Origin: an uncultured Verrucomicrobiota bacterium
GTDB taxonomy: Bacteria; Verrucomicrobiota; Kiritimatiellia; Kiritimatiellales; Tichowtungiaceae
Direction of reading: 5' to 3'
DNA length: 64,000 nt
Assembly: GCA_903831085.1 (NCBI GenBank)
Contig: CAIKWE010000032.1
Span: 1 to 64,000, forward strand
Position numbers and translations under genes: made by a program. The notes under the pieces are model-generated. The model saw only the letters and a list, made by a program, of their open reading frames with translations, made no database searches and had not been told where the DNA came from. Every line of letters begins with the position of its first letter. Within the stretch, counting starts at the first letter, position 1. Shown here one piece after another: positions 8,192-32,241 of this stretch.

Positions 8192-8754
8192 TGCGCCGCT
8201 GGACGGTTGGCGCGCTCGTTGCATGGCTTGTCCTTTCTGTGATCGGCTGGATTTTTTACATGCCGCCGTCGGCGGTGCGGACGCTCAAGCCGGTTCCTTC
8301 CCATGCGCAGATTGTTTACCACAGCAATACGCCCGGCTGGTTCTTGTCCTTTTTTCCGAACCTTGGAAAAGAAGAAGGCCGGTTTTCCAAACGGTGGAAG
8401 AAAAGTTTCCAAACCTTGGAAAAAAGTCCGTTGACGGTGGCCTCGGTTTCGCTGGGCGGGCGCGACCGGCGCGACAGCTGGGTCGCGGTCAGCGCCCTCG
8501 GCCCGCAGGCCGTTCTTTTGCGCTGGCAGTTAAAGCTTTTTCCACCCGCAGGAATCAAACCGTCCCGCTCTTACGGTGCGTGGCCGGTCTGGGAATACAG
8601 CGATCCGGCGCTTCCGGTGTGGATGCGCATCCGTTTTTCGATTTCCGAAGGATTGCTGATTTGTTCGATTTCCGATGACAGTCATGATATCTATTACCTG
8701 CTTGACACGCTCGACGGGCGCCGCCCTTCGGCGGAACGAAAGGAAAGCCGATGA
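8188..8754 (+). CDS. Hypothetical membrane-anchored protein with repeat-encoded segment
   Basis: 188 residues, no family recognised. One N-terminal membrane helix (VGALVAWLVLSVIGWIFYM, 7-25), then a soluble part presumably in the periplasm. Residues about 53-80 (FFPNLGKEEG through SFQTLEKSP) are encoded by three successive copies of the window palindrome, so this segment looks inserted rather than ancestral. Downstream are beta-rich stretches (VTVASVSLGG, AVLLRWQLKLFP). It overlaps pyrD upstream and the next lipoprotein gene downstream by four bases, suggesting cotranscription with pyrKD without showing a shared function. Confidence 0.75.
   Translation: MMRRWTVGALVAWLVLSVIGWIFYMPPSAVRTLKPVPSHAQIVYHSNTPGWFLSFFPNLGKEEGRFSKRWKKSFQTLEKSPLTVASVSLGGRDRRDSWVAVSALGPQAVLLRWQLKLFPPAGIKPSRSYGAWPVWEYSDPALPVWMRIRFSISEGLLICSISDDSHDIYYLLDTLDGRRPSAERKESR
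8354..8421. repeat. Cluster of three palindrome copies
   Basis: Copies at 8354-8368 (one change), 8385-8399 (one change) and 8407-8421 (exact, spacer ACC) lie within 68 bases of one coding region, the densest cluster in the window. Confidence 0.85.
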
Positions 8755-25305: not shown

Positions 25306-27600
25306 ATGTATCGAAGCCGAATCGTGGTTCTGTTGATGGTTTGTTCTTTTTCCCATTCATTCGCTCAGGACGGGTCTGGACATCCGGCGTTGAGCGATGA
25401 AGAACGTGCGGCGCGGCGGGCGCAGTTTGCTCAAAGGTTGCTGCAGGAGGGCGTCTCAGGCGGTGCCAATGGTCCCACCAGCGCCGCTGTACGCGATCAG
25501 GCGGTATCCACGCAGCGTCCGGCCGAAGGCGGTCAGCTGGAAACCACCCGTCAGGCGGCCCAGACCGGTTCCGAAGTGACGGTGAACTGGGAAAACATCA
25601 CGCTGAAGGACAGTATTGAAGTCCTCTGCCGCGACCTCGGAATGGAATTCGTCATCTCTCCTTCGGTGAATGTTTCGCAAGAAGTGAGCGTACGGGCCGG
25701 CGATGTGACCCGCTGGACGGCGCAGGACAAGCAGGAGCTTTTTGACGCGATTCTTGAAACCGCCGGAGTGCAGAAAGTTCAGCGCGGCCGGGTCTGGGTT
25801 TTTTCGCCCTCCGACATCCGTCCGGTCGTTGAGGCGTTTAAGGACGCGAAATACGGCGACGGCAAACCGGTGATCGGGGTGATCAAACTGAAGAGTATTG
25901 ACGCGTCGCAGGCGGAGCAGTTTCTCAACACGGTCGGCGGCAAGCCGCCGCGTGTTTTCGCCATGAAGGGCTCCCGTATGATTCTGGTGCTGGGTACACA
26001 GCAGTTTCTGTCGCAGATGGAAGAGCTCGTTAAGCTGATCGATTTCCCAGCGGGCGTTTTGAGACCCTACACGCTCGAAAATGCCTCTTCCGACGATATG
26101 GTCAAAGAGCTGGCGGCCATTTTCTACGGACGGACCGGCGGCGACGGGGAGGCGATCCGCTTTACATCCGTGGCGCGTTTGAATGTAGTGGTTGCGCTTA
26201 ACGTCCCCGAAGGAATGACCGATGACGTAACCAAATGGGTCAAGCTGCTGGATCGTTCCGACGATGCCAATGAACGCGCCACCCGCGTTTACCGGTTGCA
26301 GGTCATTGACGCTGAAACGATCGGTAAAACGCTCGGCTCACTCTACTCGACCCTTTACAAACAGACGCAGTCCGCCAAGTCGGCGGCGGCAAAGCAGACG
26401 GCGGCGGAGGCCAAGAACAGCGCGAAGGTGCAGAAGAGCGGCGACTCAACTCCGGCAAAGACGACCGGTTCTGCGCCTGCGCCGAAAGCGGATGCTCCGG
26501 CGGCCAAGTCGGCGGACGCCTCGTCGCAATCCTCACCCAGTATGGAGGAGGAAGCGGTGATTTTGACGGACAAAGACACCAACACGCTGATTGTCAATGC
26601 GACGCCGGATCAGCATCGTGACATTGAGCGGACTATCAGAGAGCTGGATCGTCCGCGCCGTCAGGTGCTGATTGAAACCGTTCTGGTCGAGATGACGCTG
26701 AGTGAGGGTATGGATTTAGGCGTGGAATGGGCGGCGGCTAAAGGTATTTCTTCTGCTGGTCTTCAGTCCGGACTCAATAGCAGTATAACCCCCTTGAGCA
26801 GTATAAACCCCTTAACCCCCTTGACCCCTGCAAACCCCTTGTTTAGTACTTTTAACCCCTTGATAGACAGTACTCCGGTCAATAACGGACTGTCCTATCT
26901 GCTCAAAACCAGCGCCGAAAAATGGGCGTTCATCCAGGCTGCTGAGAACGATAACCGTTTGCAGGTGCTGGCCTCGCCAACCGTGCTGACCCGCGATGGA
27001 ATGGCCGCGACCGTTTCCTTCGGGAATGAAGTGCCGGTTCAGGCGCAAAGTCAGACGGATGCAGGGAAATCAAATTATTCCTATGACTACCATGATGCGA
27101 AAATGATCCTCACGGTTACGCCGACAATTGACGACAATAAAAACGTCACGCTGGCTCTCTCGCAGGTTCAGCGGCAGGTGAATACGGATACGACAAAGCC
27201 GCCAGGGGTAACCAGTAGTGCGCCAACCTTCACGACGCGCGAAATCAGCTCCAGCCTGCAGGTGGCGAGCGGACAGACCCTGATTCTCGGCGGGTTGATT
27301 GCACGGAACGATCAGGTCATCAAAACCGGTATTCCGCTGCTCTGCCGTATTCCATATATCGGATGGATTTTCGGACGAAACAAGACGATTAAAGTCAGTA
27401 CTGAAATTCTGATGATTCTCACGCCGCATGTGGTGGATACCCGCGACGAAACCGATTCGCTGACCAAAGAGTTCCGCACGAAAATCATGGGGGCGATGGC
27501 GGTGAAGGATGTCCGCAAACTCTACAATCTGGAAGAACCGAAAGCCTCGACGAACGCACTGACGGATACAGCTTCTGCGGAAATGAAAAAAGGGAACTGA
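25306..27600 (+). CDS. gspD: Type II secretion outer-membrane secretin GspD
   Basis: 764 residues. Signal peptide to about residue 20. N0 domain about 92-170, N1 about 190-255, N2 about 258-330, N3 about 330-450 interrupted by an Ala/Lys/Pro-rich disordered insert (about 345-415), then the secretin barrel (about 450-720; VEMTLSEGMDLG, VTPTIDDNKNVTL, GQTLILGGLI). Forms the oligomeric outer-membrane channel. A short-repeat block at about 492-523 encodes recurring NPL units. GAGGTGGGGTGA precedes the ATG. First gene of an eleven-gene operon. Confidence 0.96.
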   Translation: MYRSRIVVLLMVCSFSHSFAQDGSGHPALSDEERAARRAQFAQRLLQEGVSGGANGPTSAAVRDQAVSTQRPAEGGQLETTRQAAQTGSEVTVNWENITLKDSIEVLCRDLGMEFVISPSVNVSQEVSVRAGDVTRWTAQDKQELFDAILETAGVQKVQRGRVWVFSPSDIRPVVEAFKDAKYGDGKPVIGVIKLKSIDASQAEQFLNTVGGKPPRVFAMKGSRMILVLGTQQFLSQMEELVKLIDFPAGVLRPYTLENASSDDMVKELAAIFYGRTGGDGEAIRFTSVARLNVVVALNVPEGMTDDVTKWVKLLDRSDDANERATRVYRLQVIDAETIGKTLGSLYSTLYKQTQSAKSAAAKQTAAEAKNSAKVQKSGDSTPAKTTGSAPAPKADAPAAKSADASSQSSPSMEEEAVILTDKDTNTLIVNATPDQHRDIERTIRELDRPRRQVLIETVLVEMTLSEGMDLGVEWAAAKGISSAGLQSGLNSSITPLSSINPLTPLTPANPLFSTFNPLIDSTPVNNGLSYLLKTSAEKWAFIQAAENDNRLQVLASPTVLTRDGMAATVSFGNEVPVQAQSQTDAGKSNYSYDYHDAKMILTVTPTIDDNKNVTLALSQVQRQVNTDTTKPPGVTSSAPTFTTREISSSLQVASGQTLILGGLIARNDQVIKTGIPLLCRIPYIGWIFGRNKTIKVSTEILMILTPHVVDTRDETDSLTKEFRTKIMGAMAVKDVRKLYNLEEPKASTNALTDTASAEMKKGN
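26781..26872 (+). repeat. 18-bp minisatellite-like repeat within gspD
   Basis: Units such as CAGTATAACCCCCTTGAG and CAGTATAAACCCCTTAAC recur with CCCCTTG cores, encoding SSITPL, SSINPL, TPLTPA, NPLFST, FNPLID. Codon use here differs sharply from the surrounding secretin sequence. Units of 18 bp keep frame, so copy number could vary without loss of the gene. Confidence 0.8.
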
Positions 27601-29290: not shown

Positions 29291-29303
29291 GGGGGAGCGG
29301 ATG

Positions 29304-29432
29304 ATTGGAAGAATGGAAGAATGGATGATTGGAAGAAGGAGTGCTCAAAAGGCCTTCTCTTGTCTCTCTATTCTCTCATTCATCCATTCATCCATTTTTC
29401 TAAATTCCCAACCTTCCAACCTTCCAATCTTC
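29304..29432. repeat. Inverted pair of octamer arrays between gspE and gspF
   Basis: Left arm 29304-29343: ATTGGAAG, AATGGAAG, AATGGATG, ATTGGAAG, AAGGAGTG. Right arm 29377-29432 in reverse orientation: CATTCATC twice, CATTTTTC, one odd unit, CAACCTTC twice, CAATCTTC. All units are 8 bp and in phase within each arm, and the arms could pair into a long imperfect hairpin in mRNA. The right arm ends at the gspF start codon. Confidence 0.88.
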
Positions 29433-29434
29433 CA

Positions 29435-30649
29435 ATGAATAAGTTTTTCTACAGAGCGATCACGGCGGACGGAACTCCCCGTAACGGTTCGCTGGAGGCT
29501 CCCGGCAAAGCGCAGGCGGCTCTGTCGCTTCAGAAAAGCGGATTAATTGTGCTCAGCCTGTCGGCTGCCGGCGAACAGGGCTCTTCCGGGTCGGCATCCT
29601 TCGCGCTGACCGGCCGCATCAATGCGCAGCATCTGGTGGACTTCGCCATCGAAACATCGGCGCTGCTCGACGCGAAGGTTCCGCTGGAACAGGTGCTCAA
29701 GACACAAACCGACCTTTGTACACATAAACGGTTCAAAGAAATGCTGACCTCAATCTGGCAGGATGTGAACGGCGGGGCTTCTTTTGCCGACGCACTGGCG
29801 CGGCACCCGAAAACATTCGAACGCTTTTTTGTGAATATGGTGCGCGGCGGCGAGGCGTCCGGCTCGCTGGAGCTGATCATGCGTCGTATTGCGGAGTTGC
29901 TGGAACGCCGCATGAAACTGCGCACGAAAGTGGTCGGCGCGCTGATTTATCCGTCGCTGCTCGTGGTTATGGGTGTCGTGGTGATCAGTGTCATGATGAT
30001 TTTTGTGGTTCCTAAAATGACGGCGCTGTTCGGGGATTCCGGGCGGTTGCTGCCGGCGTCCACGCGGGCGGTGATCGCGATGAGTAATTTTACCCGTTCC
30101 AGTTGGTGGCTTTTTCCGCTGGCGTGCGCCGGCCTGTTTACCGTTTATAAAATGAAGACCCGCTCCGAAGAAGGACAGGCTGCGTTCGGACGCGCCATTT
30201 TGAAAATTCCACTGCTTGGAAACCTGATCGCGCAGGCGGAGACCAGCCGCTTCTGCCGTATGATGAGTTCGCTGCTCGACGGACAGGTCCCGATCCTTTC
30301 CGCTCTCTCGATCACCGGCGGCACGCTGGGCAACGCGGCGCTGCGTAAGCTGATGAAGGAAGTCTATTCCCGTGTGCAGGGCGGCCAGCCAATGGGGCCG
30401 CTTCTTCAGGCCAGTCCGGAATTTCCGGAGCTGGCTTCGCGCATGATCACCATGGGCGAAGAGTCCGGCGAATTACAGACCATGCTCAACAAAGTGGCGG
30501 ATCGCTACGAAGAAAAAGTGGCCGCCACCACCGAACGGCTGGTCGGCGTGATCGAGCCGGTTTTTATCATCTTAATGGGGATCGTCGTCGGGTTCATTGT
30601 CATCAGCATGATGCAGGGCATTATGGCGATGAGCACATCCGCCGGATAA
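29435..30649 (+). CDS. gspF: Type II secretion inner-membrane platform GspF
   Basis: 404 residues from ATG 29435. The in-frame upstream extension to 29321 is made only of repeat sequence and is rejected. Two homologous GspF domains (about 70-190 and 275-395), each followed by membrane helices (about 168-190, 220-245, 370-395). The family's Gly/Glu-rich GEESGEL motif is near 340. There is no clear ribosome-binding site because the octamer array abuts the start. Holds the platform on which GspE acts. Confidence 0.95.
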   Translation: MNKFFYRAITADGTPRNGSLEAPGKAQAALSLQKSGLIVLSLSAAGEQGSSGSASFALTGRINAQHLVDFAIETSALLDAKVPLEQVLKTQTDLCTHKRFKEMLTSIWQDVNGGASFADALARHPKTFERFFVNMVRGGEASGSLELIMRRIAELLERRMKLRTKVVGALIYPSLLVVMGVVVISVMMIFVVPKMTALFGDSGRLLPASTRAVIAMSNFTRSSWWLFPLACAGLFTVYKMKTRSEEGQAAFGRAILKIPLLGNLIAQAETSRFCRMMSSLLDGQVPILSALSITGGTLGNAALRKLMKEVYSRVQGGQPMGPLLQASPEFPELASRMITMGEESGELQTMLNKVADRYEEKVAATTERLVGVIEPVFIILMGIVVGFIVISMMQGIMAMSTSAG

Positions 30650-31126: not shown

Positions 31127-31753
31127 ATGTGCCGGAACCGGAACAGAGGTTTTACATTGGTCGAATTGCTGGTGGTATTGGCAATTATCTCGATCATGGT
31201 CGGCGTGGCAGTCGCCACGCTCTCCGGAGCCGGTACGCCGAAGCAGCAGCTGCGCCGTGAAGCCCGCGACTTAACCAAACTGCTTAAGGAGGCGCGGCAG
31301 GCCGCGATGGAACGTAAACTGAAAGTGGATGTTTATGTCGAGCCGTCTGTCCGCACGGTTTGCGCGGTTGAATCCGGGTATGCACGCAAGCTGCTGGCGG
31401 ACAACGCGGAGTTCTTTACGGATGAAACCAGTCTGAAGGAACTGGTGCCGGAAACAAACCGGTTCTTCCGGGTGACAACCTTTCCGGAAGAGATCGCCGT
31501 GGAAGCCTTTGCGCTAAGTGATATCGAGCCGGAAAAAACCGGCGAGGAGCCGCTGTTTGAAACGGTGCCGAAAGAAGTTCCAATGACTGGAACCGAAACG
31601 TCCGAAGTCAGCCGGGCGGTTTTTAGTTTTACACATCTGGGCGGCGCCTCTGGCGGCGGAGTCAGTGTGGTGCGCGGCGGACTGCGTATTGATATCGCCT
31701 GCGATCTGCTCACCGGATTGCCCGAAATTGTTCGGCGGAAGGCGGCGCAATGA
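31127..31753 (+). CDS. gspH: Minor pseudopilin GspH
   Basis: 208 residues from ATG 31127, preceded by GGAGAG; a TTG-initiated extension overlapping gspG is less likely. Class III leader RGFTLVELL cleaved after Gly8, Glu13 at +5, hydrophobic helix, then a beta-rich GspH body. Part of the pseudopilus tip. The stop overlaps the gspI ATG by four bases. A near-copy palindrome sits at 31578-31592. Confidence 0.9.
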   Translation: MCRNRNRGFTLVELLVVLAIISIMVGVAVATLSGAGTPKQQLRREARDLTKLLKEARQAAMERKLKVDVYVEPSVRTVCAVESGYARKLLADNAEFFTDETSLKELVPETNRFFRVTTFPEEIAVEAFALSDIEPEKTGEEPLFETVPKEVPMTGTETSEVSRAVFSFTHLGGASGGGVSVVRGGLRIDIACDLLTGLPEIVRRKAAQ

Positions 31754-32241
31754 GGAAAAATTGGAAGGCTGGAAGATTGGAAGGTTGGAGAAATAGAAAG
31801 AGGGATGTTGAACATTCCTCCTTCCAATCTTCCAAACTTCCATCCCTCCAGCCTTTCTCCCGCAAAGCGGGCTTCTCCCTGCTGGAGGTTCTGGTGGCGC
31901 TGGCGATTTTTGCGATTGCCGCCGGCGGGGTTCTCGTGGCGCTGGGACATCATTTTAAAAATGTGTCGTTTCTGCAGGACCACTCGCGGGCCGTACGGAT
32001 TGCATCCCGCCAAATGAATGCAATGCGACGGATGCCTACCGTTCTGGAAGAGGTAGCGGAAGGTTCCGAAGATCGCTTTTCCTGGATGTCTTTGGCTAGC
32101 ACCGACGGACTGGATGAGTGGCCAGGGCTGACTTCGTCGACGGGAACGCCCGTGCGGCTGTCGGTGACGGTTCAGTGGAGTGATAGTGTCGGCGGGCCGG
32201 CGGCAGGAAAGGTTCGTCTGGACGGATTTGGGGTTTTTTGA
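31750..32241 (+). CDS. gspI: Minor pseudopilin GspI with repeat-derived leader
   Basis: 163 residues. The pseudopilin motif is AGFSLLEVLVALAIF with cleavage after Gly41 and Glu46 at +5, so the leader is about 41 residues where 6-15 is usual. Codons 5-37 fall inside an inverted octamer array, and no closer ATG exists in frame; the ATG at 31750 overlaps the gspH stop (ATGA). The mature part fits GspI (SVTVQWSD near the end). The leader looks lengthened by repeat insertion. It is uncertain whether the peptidase tolerates it or a cryptic start is used. Confidence 0.85.
   Translation: MRKNWKAGRLEGWRNRKRDVEHSSFQSSKLPSLQPFSRKAGFSLLEVLVALAIFAIAAGGVLVALGHHFKNVSFLQDHSRAVRIASRQMNAMRRMPTVLEEVAEGSEDRFSWMSLASTDGLDEWPGLTSSTGTPVRLSVTVQWSDSVGGPAAGKVRLDGFGVF
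31761..31859. repeat. Inverted pair of octamer arrays inside the gspI 5' end
   Basis: Left arm 31761-31792: TTGGAAGG, CTGGAAGA, TTGGAAGG, TTGGAGAA. Right arm 31820-31859: CCTTCCAA, TCTTCCAA, ACTTCCAT, CCCTCCAG, CCTTTCTC. Same 8-bp period and near-identical units as the pair at 29304-29432 in the same operon. Confidence 0.88.

Follow-up and report, generated by a model that had tools for sequence, protein, structure and literature searches.

The window, i.e. the whole stretch of 64,000 nucleotides that was analysed, belongs to a draft genome of 2.14 Mb in 60 contigs (G000) and carries a type II secretion operon with gspD, E, F, G, H, I, J, and K, gspD being assigned from its ORF translation by eye. 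The gspI gene (Table 1) scores 44.7 bits with the NCBIfam model TIGR01707, just above the cut-off of 44.35, and is thus a member of the GspI family; it also scores 34.5 bits with Pfam N_methyl (PF07963), i.e. with the class III signal peptide. The gspH stop codon, TGA at 31751-31753, overlaps the start codon of gspI (ATGA). The leader, MRKNWKAGRLEGWRNRKRDVEHSSFQSSKLPSLQPFSRKAG, is directly followed by FSLLEV, the junction being Gly|Phe, and cleavage by prepilin peptidase is predicted from the motif RKAG|FSLLE with its Gly at position -1. With 11 Arg/Lys versus 3 Asp/Glu residues (counted by eye) the leader is hydrophilic and carries a net positive charge.

Table 1. Features of the gspI region and of the gspE-gspF junction (window positions)
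Feature	Position	Strand	Remarks
Second octamer-array inverted pair	29299-29436	+	between gspE and gspF
gspH, minor pseudopilin	31127-31753	+	8-residue leader; TIGR01708 48.1 bits, under the cut-off of 80
RNA hairpin	31740-31880	+	predicted fold -59.9 kcal/mol, z -3.95 (dinucleotide shuffles)
gspI, minor pseudopilin	31750-32241	+	between gspH and gspJ
gspI leader	31750-31872	+	41 codons from ATG, last residue Gly at -1
First arm, octamer array TTGGAAGG	31761-31789	+	period 8, 3.6 copies (TRF)
TTG, alternative in-frame start	31777-31779	+	leader of 32 residues if used
Second arm, inverted octamer array CCTTCCAA	31820-31855	+	
Mature GspI coding region	31873-32241	+	

Within the leader a short loop separates the TTGGAAGG-like array from the inverted array, for which TRF reports positions 31821-31842 (period 8, 2.8 copies). 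The two halves are 91% complementary over 31762-31784/31820-31842 and 78% complementary over the longer inverted repeat 31765-31809/31811-31855. The original prediction that nearly all of the leader is array sequence holds insofar as the arms plus the loop cover most of it, but the scored arms alone comprise only 61 of its 123 nt. A chance origin of the arrays was rejected by shuffling: the period-8 score of the leader was reached by none of 5000 and its inverted-repeat score by none of 300 dinucleotide shuffles, and the window contains four period-8 arrays of this strength versus 0.0 on average in 20 shuffles of the window. The octamer pattern has 16 matches in G000 versus 5 control matches, and further array sites are found in the sampled stretches; crude gene calls placed the arms in gspI in a longer antisense ORF, so that they were scored as "body". 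By its build the element falls into the class of hepta-/octamer arrays, i.e. 7- or 8-nt units repeated in tandem, dispersed over the genome and mostly intergenic.

An intergenic pair of the same type is located at the gspE-gspF junction, which has a spacer. The canonical gspF ATG (MNKFFYRA) is found at the downstream edge of this pair and has no obvious ribosome-binding site; starting instead from the in-frame ATG 29321 would lengthen GspF by 38 residues, through the array pair.

Two other identities for the element in the gspI leader were rejected. The best matches in Rfam are microRNA hairpins that score far under the gathering scores, and a GTAG-type REP can be dismissed as the element has no GTAG tag and a REP query from genome G020 finds 0 matches in G000. 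For Y1 transposases G000 has one match only, which is partial.

The nearest orthologue is gspI of a sister species (G009), the mature part of which is 71% identical. Its leader, VKKKQTLGTGRTG|FSLLEV, has 13 residues, starts with GTG, and contains no array. Over the 45 nt upstream of the start the two genomes align without gaps, and the start codons, ATG and GTG, both lie on the gspH stop codon. This comparison of gspI 5' ends with a sister species, which had been proposed as a check, thus yielded a short, repeat-free leader at an equivalent start position, and suggests that the 41-residue leader is probably not ancestral. As no two strains were found that differ in the presence of the element, the argument for an insertion is drawn from this 71%-identical orthologue, the nearest comparison available.

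Among 345 genomes of the class, 12 contributed the 13 GspI loci of our set, with leaders of 41, 13, 41, 5, 6, 20, 23, 17, 31, 32, 4, 4, and 8 residues. In all 12 of the 13 loci for which the distance was determined, the gspI start is at most 11 nt away from the gspH stop. All five leaders of at least 23 residues bear repeats, namely the octamer pair in G000, a palindrome in G031, heptamers in G019, and GTAG-type REP pairs in G020 and G018, the latter diverged from the former, so that an equally long leader free of repeats, a finding that would have spoken against a role of the repeat, does not occur among the 13 loci. The REP pairs of G020 and G018 probably go back to one event, and relatives of this element are present in 9 of the 12 genomes. 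The 20-residue leader of G032 has a weak inverted repeat only (z -1.33), and the heptamer leader of G019 folds no better than shuffled sequences.

Repeats are also found in the leaders of other pseudopilins. In G031 one palindrome, which has 30 matches in this genome and 11 in G025, occupies the leaders of gspI and gspJ in the identical frame. In G018 two kinds of repeat lie side by side, with the REP pair in the gspI leader and octamer arrays in the neighbouring gspJ and gspK leaders. TTTCAGG-like heptamers are located in the leaders of G024 gspH, G024 gspJ, and G033 gspJ, AAACCGG heptamers in that of G023 gspJ, and an octamer pair in that of G025 gspJ. The gspG leaders have 9-13 residues by the nearest ATG (12 operons; the G031 contig is too short to include gspG). 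A second pseudopilin cluster of G000 (L203, G000:C25:8026-10582), whose first gene matches the GspG model below the cut-off, has four leaders of 17-38 residues that consist mostly of heptamer or octamer repeats. The mature parts of its four genes share 63-74% identity with those of the sister species, whose leaders are mostly repeats as well, while in three of the four orthologous pairs the leaders show no relation in sequence (by eye). The remaining pair shares similar heptamers, i.e. not all leader repeats are recent. Thus, the long, repeat-filled leader is a recurrent pattern and not a one-off.

For a broader survey we collected 178 prepilins of the order that passed a motif filter, 177 of them with a usable start, from the fetched loci of the 12 genomes, a subset given that the PF07963 matches counted per genome sum to 215, part of which were listed. 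Arrays of period 7 or 8 are present in 17 of the 177 leaders (12 with period 7, 5 with period 8) versus none of the 177 mature windows (Fisher p 1e-5); as two of the 17 are gspH paralogues of G025, at most 16 are independent. Other periods are rare (period 5, n = 1; period 6, n = 2; periods 10 and 11, n = 0), and only ~10% of the leaders pass the array threshold. Of the eight leaders with at least 30 residues by the nearest start, five exceed the threshold and two fall short of it, the remaining one being the G018 REP pair. The other orders of the class are represented by 62 prepilins from 15 genomes (30 loci among the matches listed), with period-7 arrays in 5 of 62 leaders and in no mature window. 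A control from other phyla (L043-L120, mostly Proteobacteria) gave five period-7/8 array matches (3 and 2) in the leaders of 290 prepilins with a start and one in the mature windows. As a control for N-termini in general we used sulfatases (30 loci with 36 motif matches, 35 having a signal-like stretch). Arrays between start and motif are found in 0 of 35, which does not differ significantly from the prepilin leaders (p 0.08), so that a specificity of the arrays for prepilins, as opposed to any N-terminus, is tentative; one array is located in the 240 nt upstream. Fold z values are based on mononucleotide shuffles in the leader survey and on dinucleotide shuffles for the window and the 13 loci.

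Based on these findings we propose, with a probability of roughly 80%, that a dispersed octamer-pair repeat arrived in gspI, or expanded there, in the stretch from the conserved start to the cleavage site, has stayed in frame, and is tolerated in the cleaved leader. A repeat that is normally intergenic would have inserted or expanded at this position without introducing stop codons, the reading frame would have stayed open, and prepilin peptidase would remove the repeat-filled leader after Gly-1, leaving mature GspI unaltered. That the repeat is neutral, that translation begins at ATG 31750, that GspI is processed normally, and that the repeat inserted or expanded here are inferences. The gspH and gspI genes overlap and have no intergenic DNA between them, and thus a repeat at this junction can leave both of them intact only as coding sequence, which the protein is able to absorb in its leader. 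According to reviews, prepilin leaders are hydrophilic, cytoplasmic, variable in length (6-26 residues), and cut after a critical Gly (PMC4471445, PMC10191384). As the gspI leader is hydrophilic and net positive and has kept Gly-1, an in-frame, stop-free repeat may be carried at little cost, and its tolerance would result from the leader being cut off by prepilin peptidase. A similar repeat in the mature protein would presumably be harmful.

The length of the leader depends on where translation starts. The claim that the sole in-frame ATG gives a leader of about 41 residues is borne out by the in-frame codon list, in which ATG 31750 and TTG 31777 are the only start codons ahead of the cleavage site, GTG, CTG, ATT, ATC, and ATA being absent in frame from this part of gspI. 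A start further downstream that would yield a leader of normal length was therefore rejected, nothing being nearer to the cleavage site than TTG 31777, and the shortest possible leader has 32 residues. The original prediction had left the choice between a tolerated insertion of the repeat into the leader and a non-ATG start inside the array. The latter narrows to TTG 31777, within the first arm, and would still give a leader that is mostly hairpin-derived. Being the sole alternative start and having GGAAGG, an SD-like sequence supplied by the array, ~8 nt on its 5' side, this codon might use the array as ribosome-binding site; we nevertheless consider this unlikely, as the ATG corresponds in position to the GTG of the sister and is coupled with the stop codon of gspH, and as the TTG is buried in the predicted stem. 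The tolerated repeat is better supported by the start position shared with a sister whose leader lacks the array. Even less probable is a selected role of the hairpin as RNA, by which it would adjust translation or the processing of the mRNA between gspH and gspI, e.g. to produce less of the minor pseudopilin, the long leader being a side effect. The strongly folding hairpin right after the coupled start and the second pair between gspE and gspF would fit such a role, but the hairpin is not conserved, being absent from the sister and most relatives, and other long leaders are built of unrelated repeats, of which that of G019 does not even fold better than shuffles.

How the repeat arose is a question of its own. 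Arrays might have grown in place by replication slippage rather than by arrival of a mobile element, as the repeat units differ from genome to genome, as if each had its own, and as the leaders of G024 gspH and gspJ contain plain heptamer runs without an inverted partner. We deem this a serious candidate, albeit the less probable one, because an inverted pair is hard to produce by slippage alone and because dispersed palindromes occupy other leaders. An assembly artefact at the palindrome would be conceivable in a draft genome of 60 contigs, but it is most improbable given that the reading frame is open throughout the repeat and that the pattern recurs in independent genomes, some of which consist of few contigs (G023, 1; G024, 5; G025, 6). 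We thus retain a repeat tolerated in the cleaved leader as the preferred reading. Relatives carry different repeats in like places, which makes cleaved leaders look like safe landing spots. Slightly favoured over its negation is the wider view that hepta-/octamer arrays and palindromes land generally and repeatedly in cleaved prepilin leaders, in Kiritimatiellota and probably in other phyla; orthologous leaders would be refilled with different repeats and the mature proteins conserved.

Dispersed tandem 7-mers that are mostly intergenic are also known from cyanobacteria (STRR). Similar heptamer arrays are described for Beggiatoaceae (TAACTGA) and, as G-rich units, for Xanthomonas and Nostoc (PMC4692102, PMC4679880), again mostly intergenic. 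For Beggiatoaceae it is remarked there that insertions into coding regions are successful mostly at the periphery or ends of proteins (PMC4679880), which is in line with the leader position of the gspI arrays. However, bacterial heptamer arrays are mostly direct repeats of one unit, whereas here we find inverted pairs, several units per genome, octamers in addition to heptamers, and a location in prepilin leaders. Rickettsia palindromic elements (RPE), short palindromic repeats that are mainly intergenic, are in some cases tolerated in frame in conserved protein genes (PMC2229807), and the repeat in the gspI leader may work like RPE or like bacterial MITEs fused in frame to genes, a likeness in function only. 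RPE are a family of about 105-146 bp, whereas the gspI-leader arms are period-8 arrays without conserved family sequence, and, unlike RPE, the repeat in gspI occupies a portion of the protein that is later removed. REPs inside genes and an enrichment of REPs in O. terrae (Verrucomicrobia) are likewise reported (PMC3733652). The G020 gspI leader resembles GTAG-tagged REP/BIME in containing an inverted pair that is headed by GTAG and occurs dispersed across several genomes (that of G018 being diverged), unlike the element in the window, which lacks the tag. Type IVb prepilins have leaders of about 15-30 residues according to a review (PMC4471445); different from these, the leader described here has 41 residues in a GspI, is made of a repeat, and has orthologues without it.

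In the open-licence literature, searched by title, no report of such repeats was found, neither for prepilin leaders nor for Kiritimatiellales. As far as this literature shows, the novelty is the recurrent use of pseudopilin leaders by repeats, the broad class of 7-/8-mer arrays being already known. Bacterial genomes often contain hepta- and octamer arrays, for which there is little explanation. Cleaved leaders provide a natural test bed: they reveal the kind, orientation, and frame of the repeats that arrive, and the length of N-terminal sequence that prepilin peptidase tolerates. If the wider view is correct, the turnover of repeats in a genome is recorded in its leaders. As the starts of pseudopilins are prone to misplacement and residues derived from repeats may be mistaken for protein, caution is advisable in annotation.

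Some further repeats were noticed. In the window, a TTTCAGG heptamer array lies in the left-end spacer (137-175), the same unit filling the G024 gspH and gspJ leaders; a 22-nt direct repeat, TTTCCAAACCGTGGAAGAAAAG, is present in two copies at 8384-8427; and an imperfect tandem repeat with periods 18 and 27 in the gspD ORF (26779-26840) encodes a Pro/Leu-rich stretch. In a different prepilin family (L149, L160, L192, and L205) the leader start is located directly 5' of TTGGAA/TTCCA palindromes; these leaders are kept in several species and have fold z values of -3.1 to -4.7 (mononucleotide shuffles). Outside Kiritimatiellota, a Lysobacterales MAG (L063) contains four prepilins with long possible leaders, some of them heptameric by eye.
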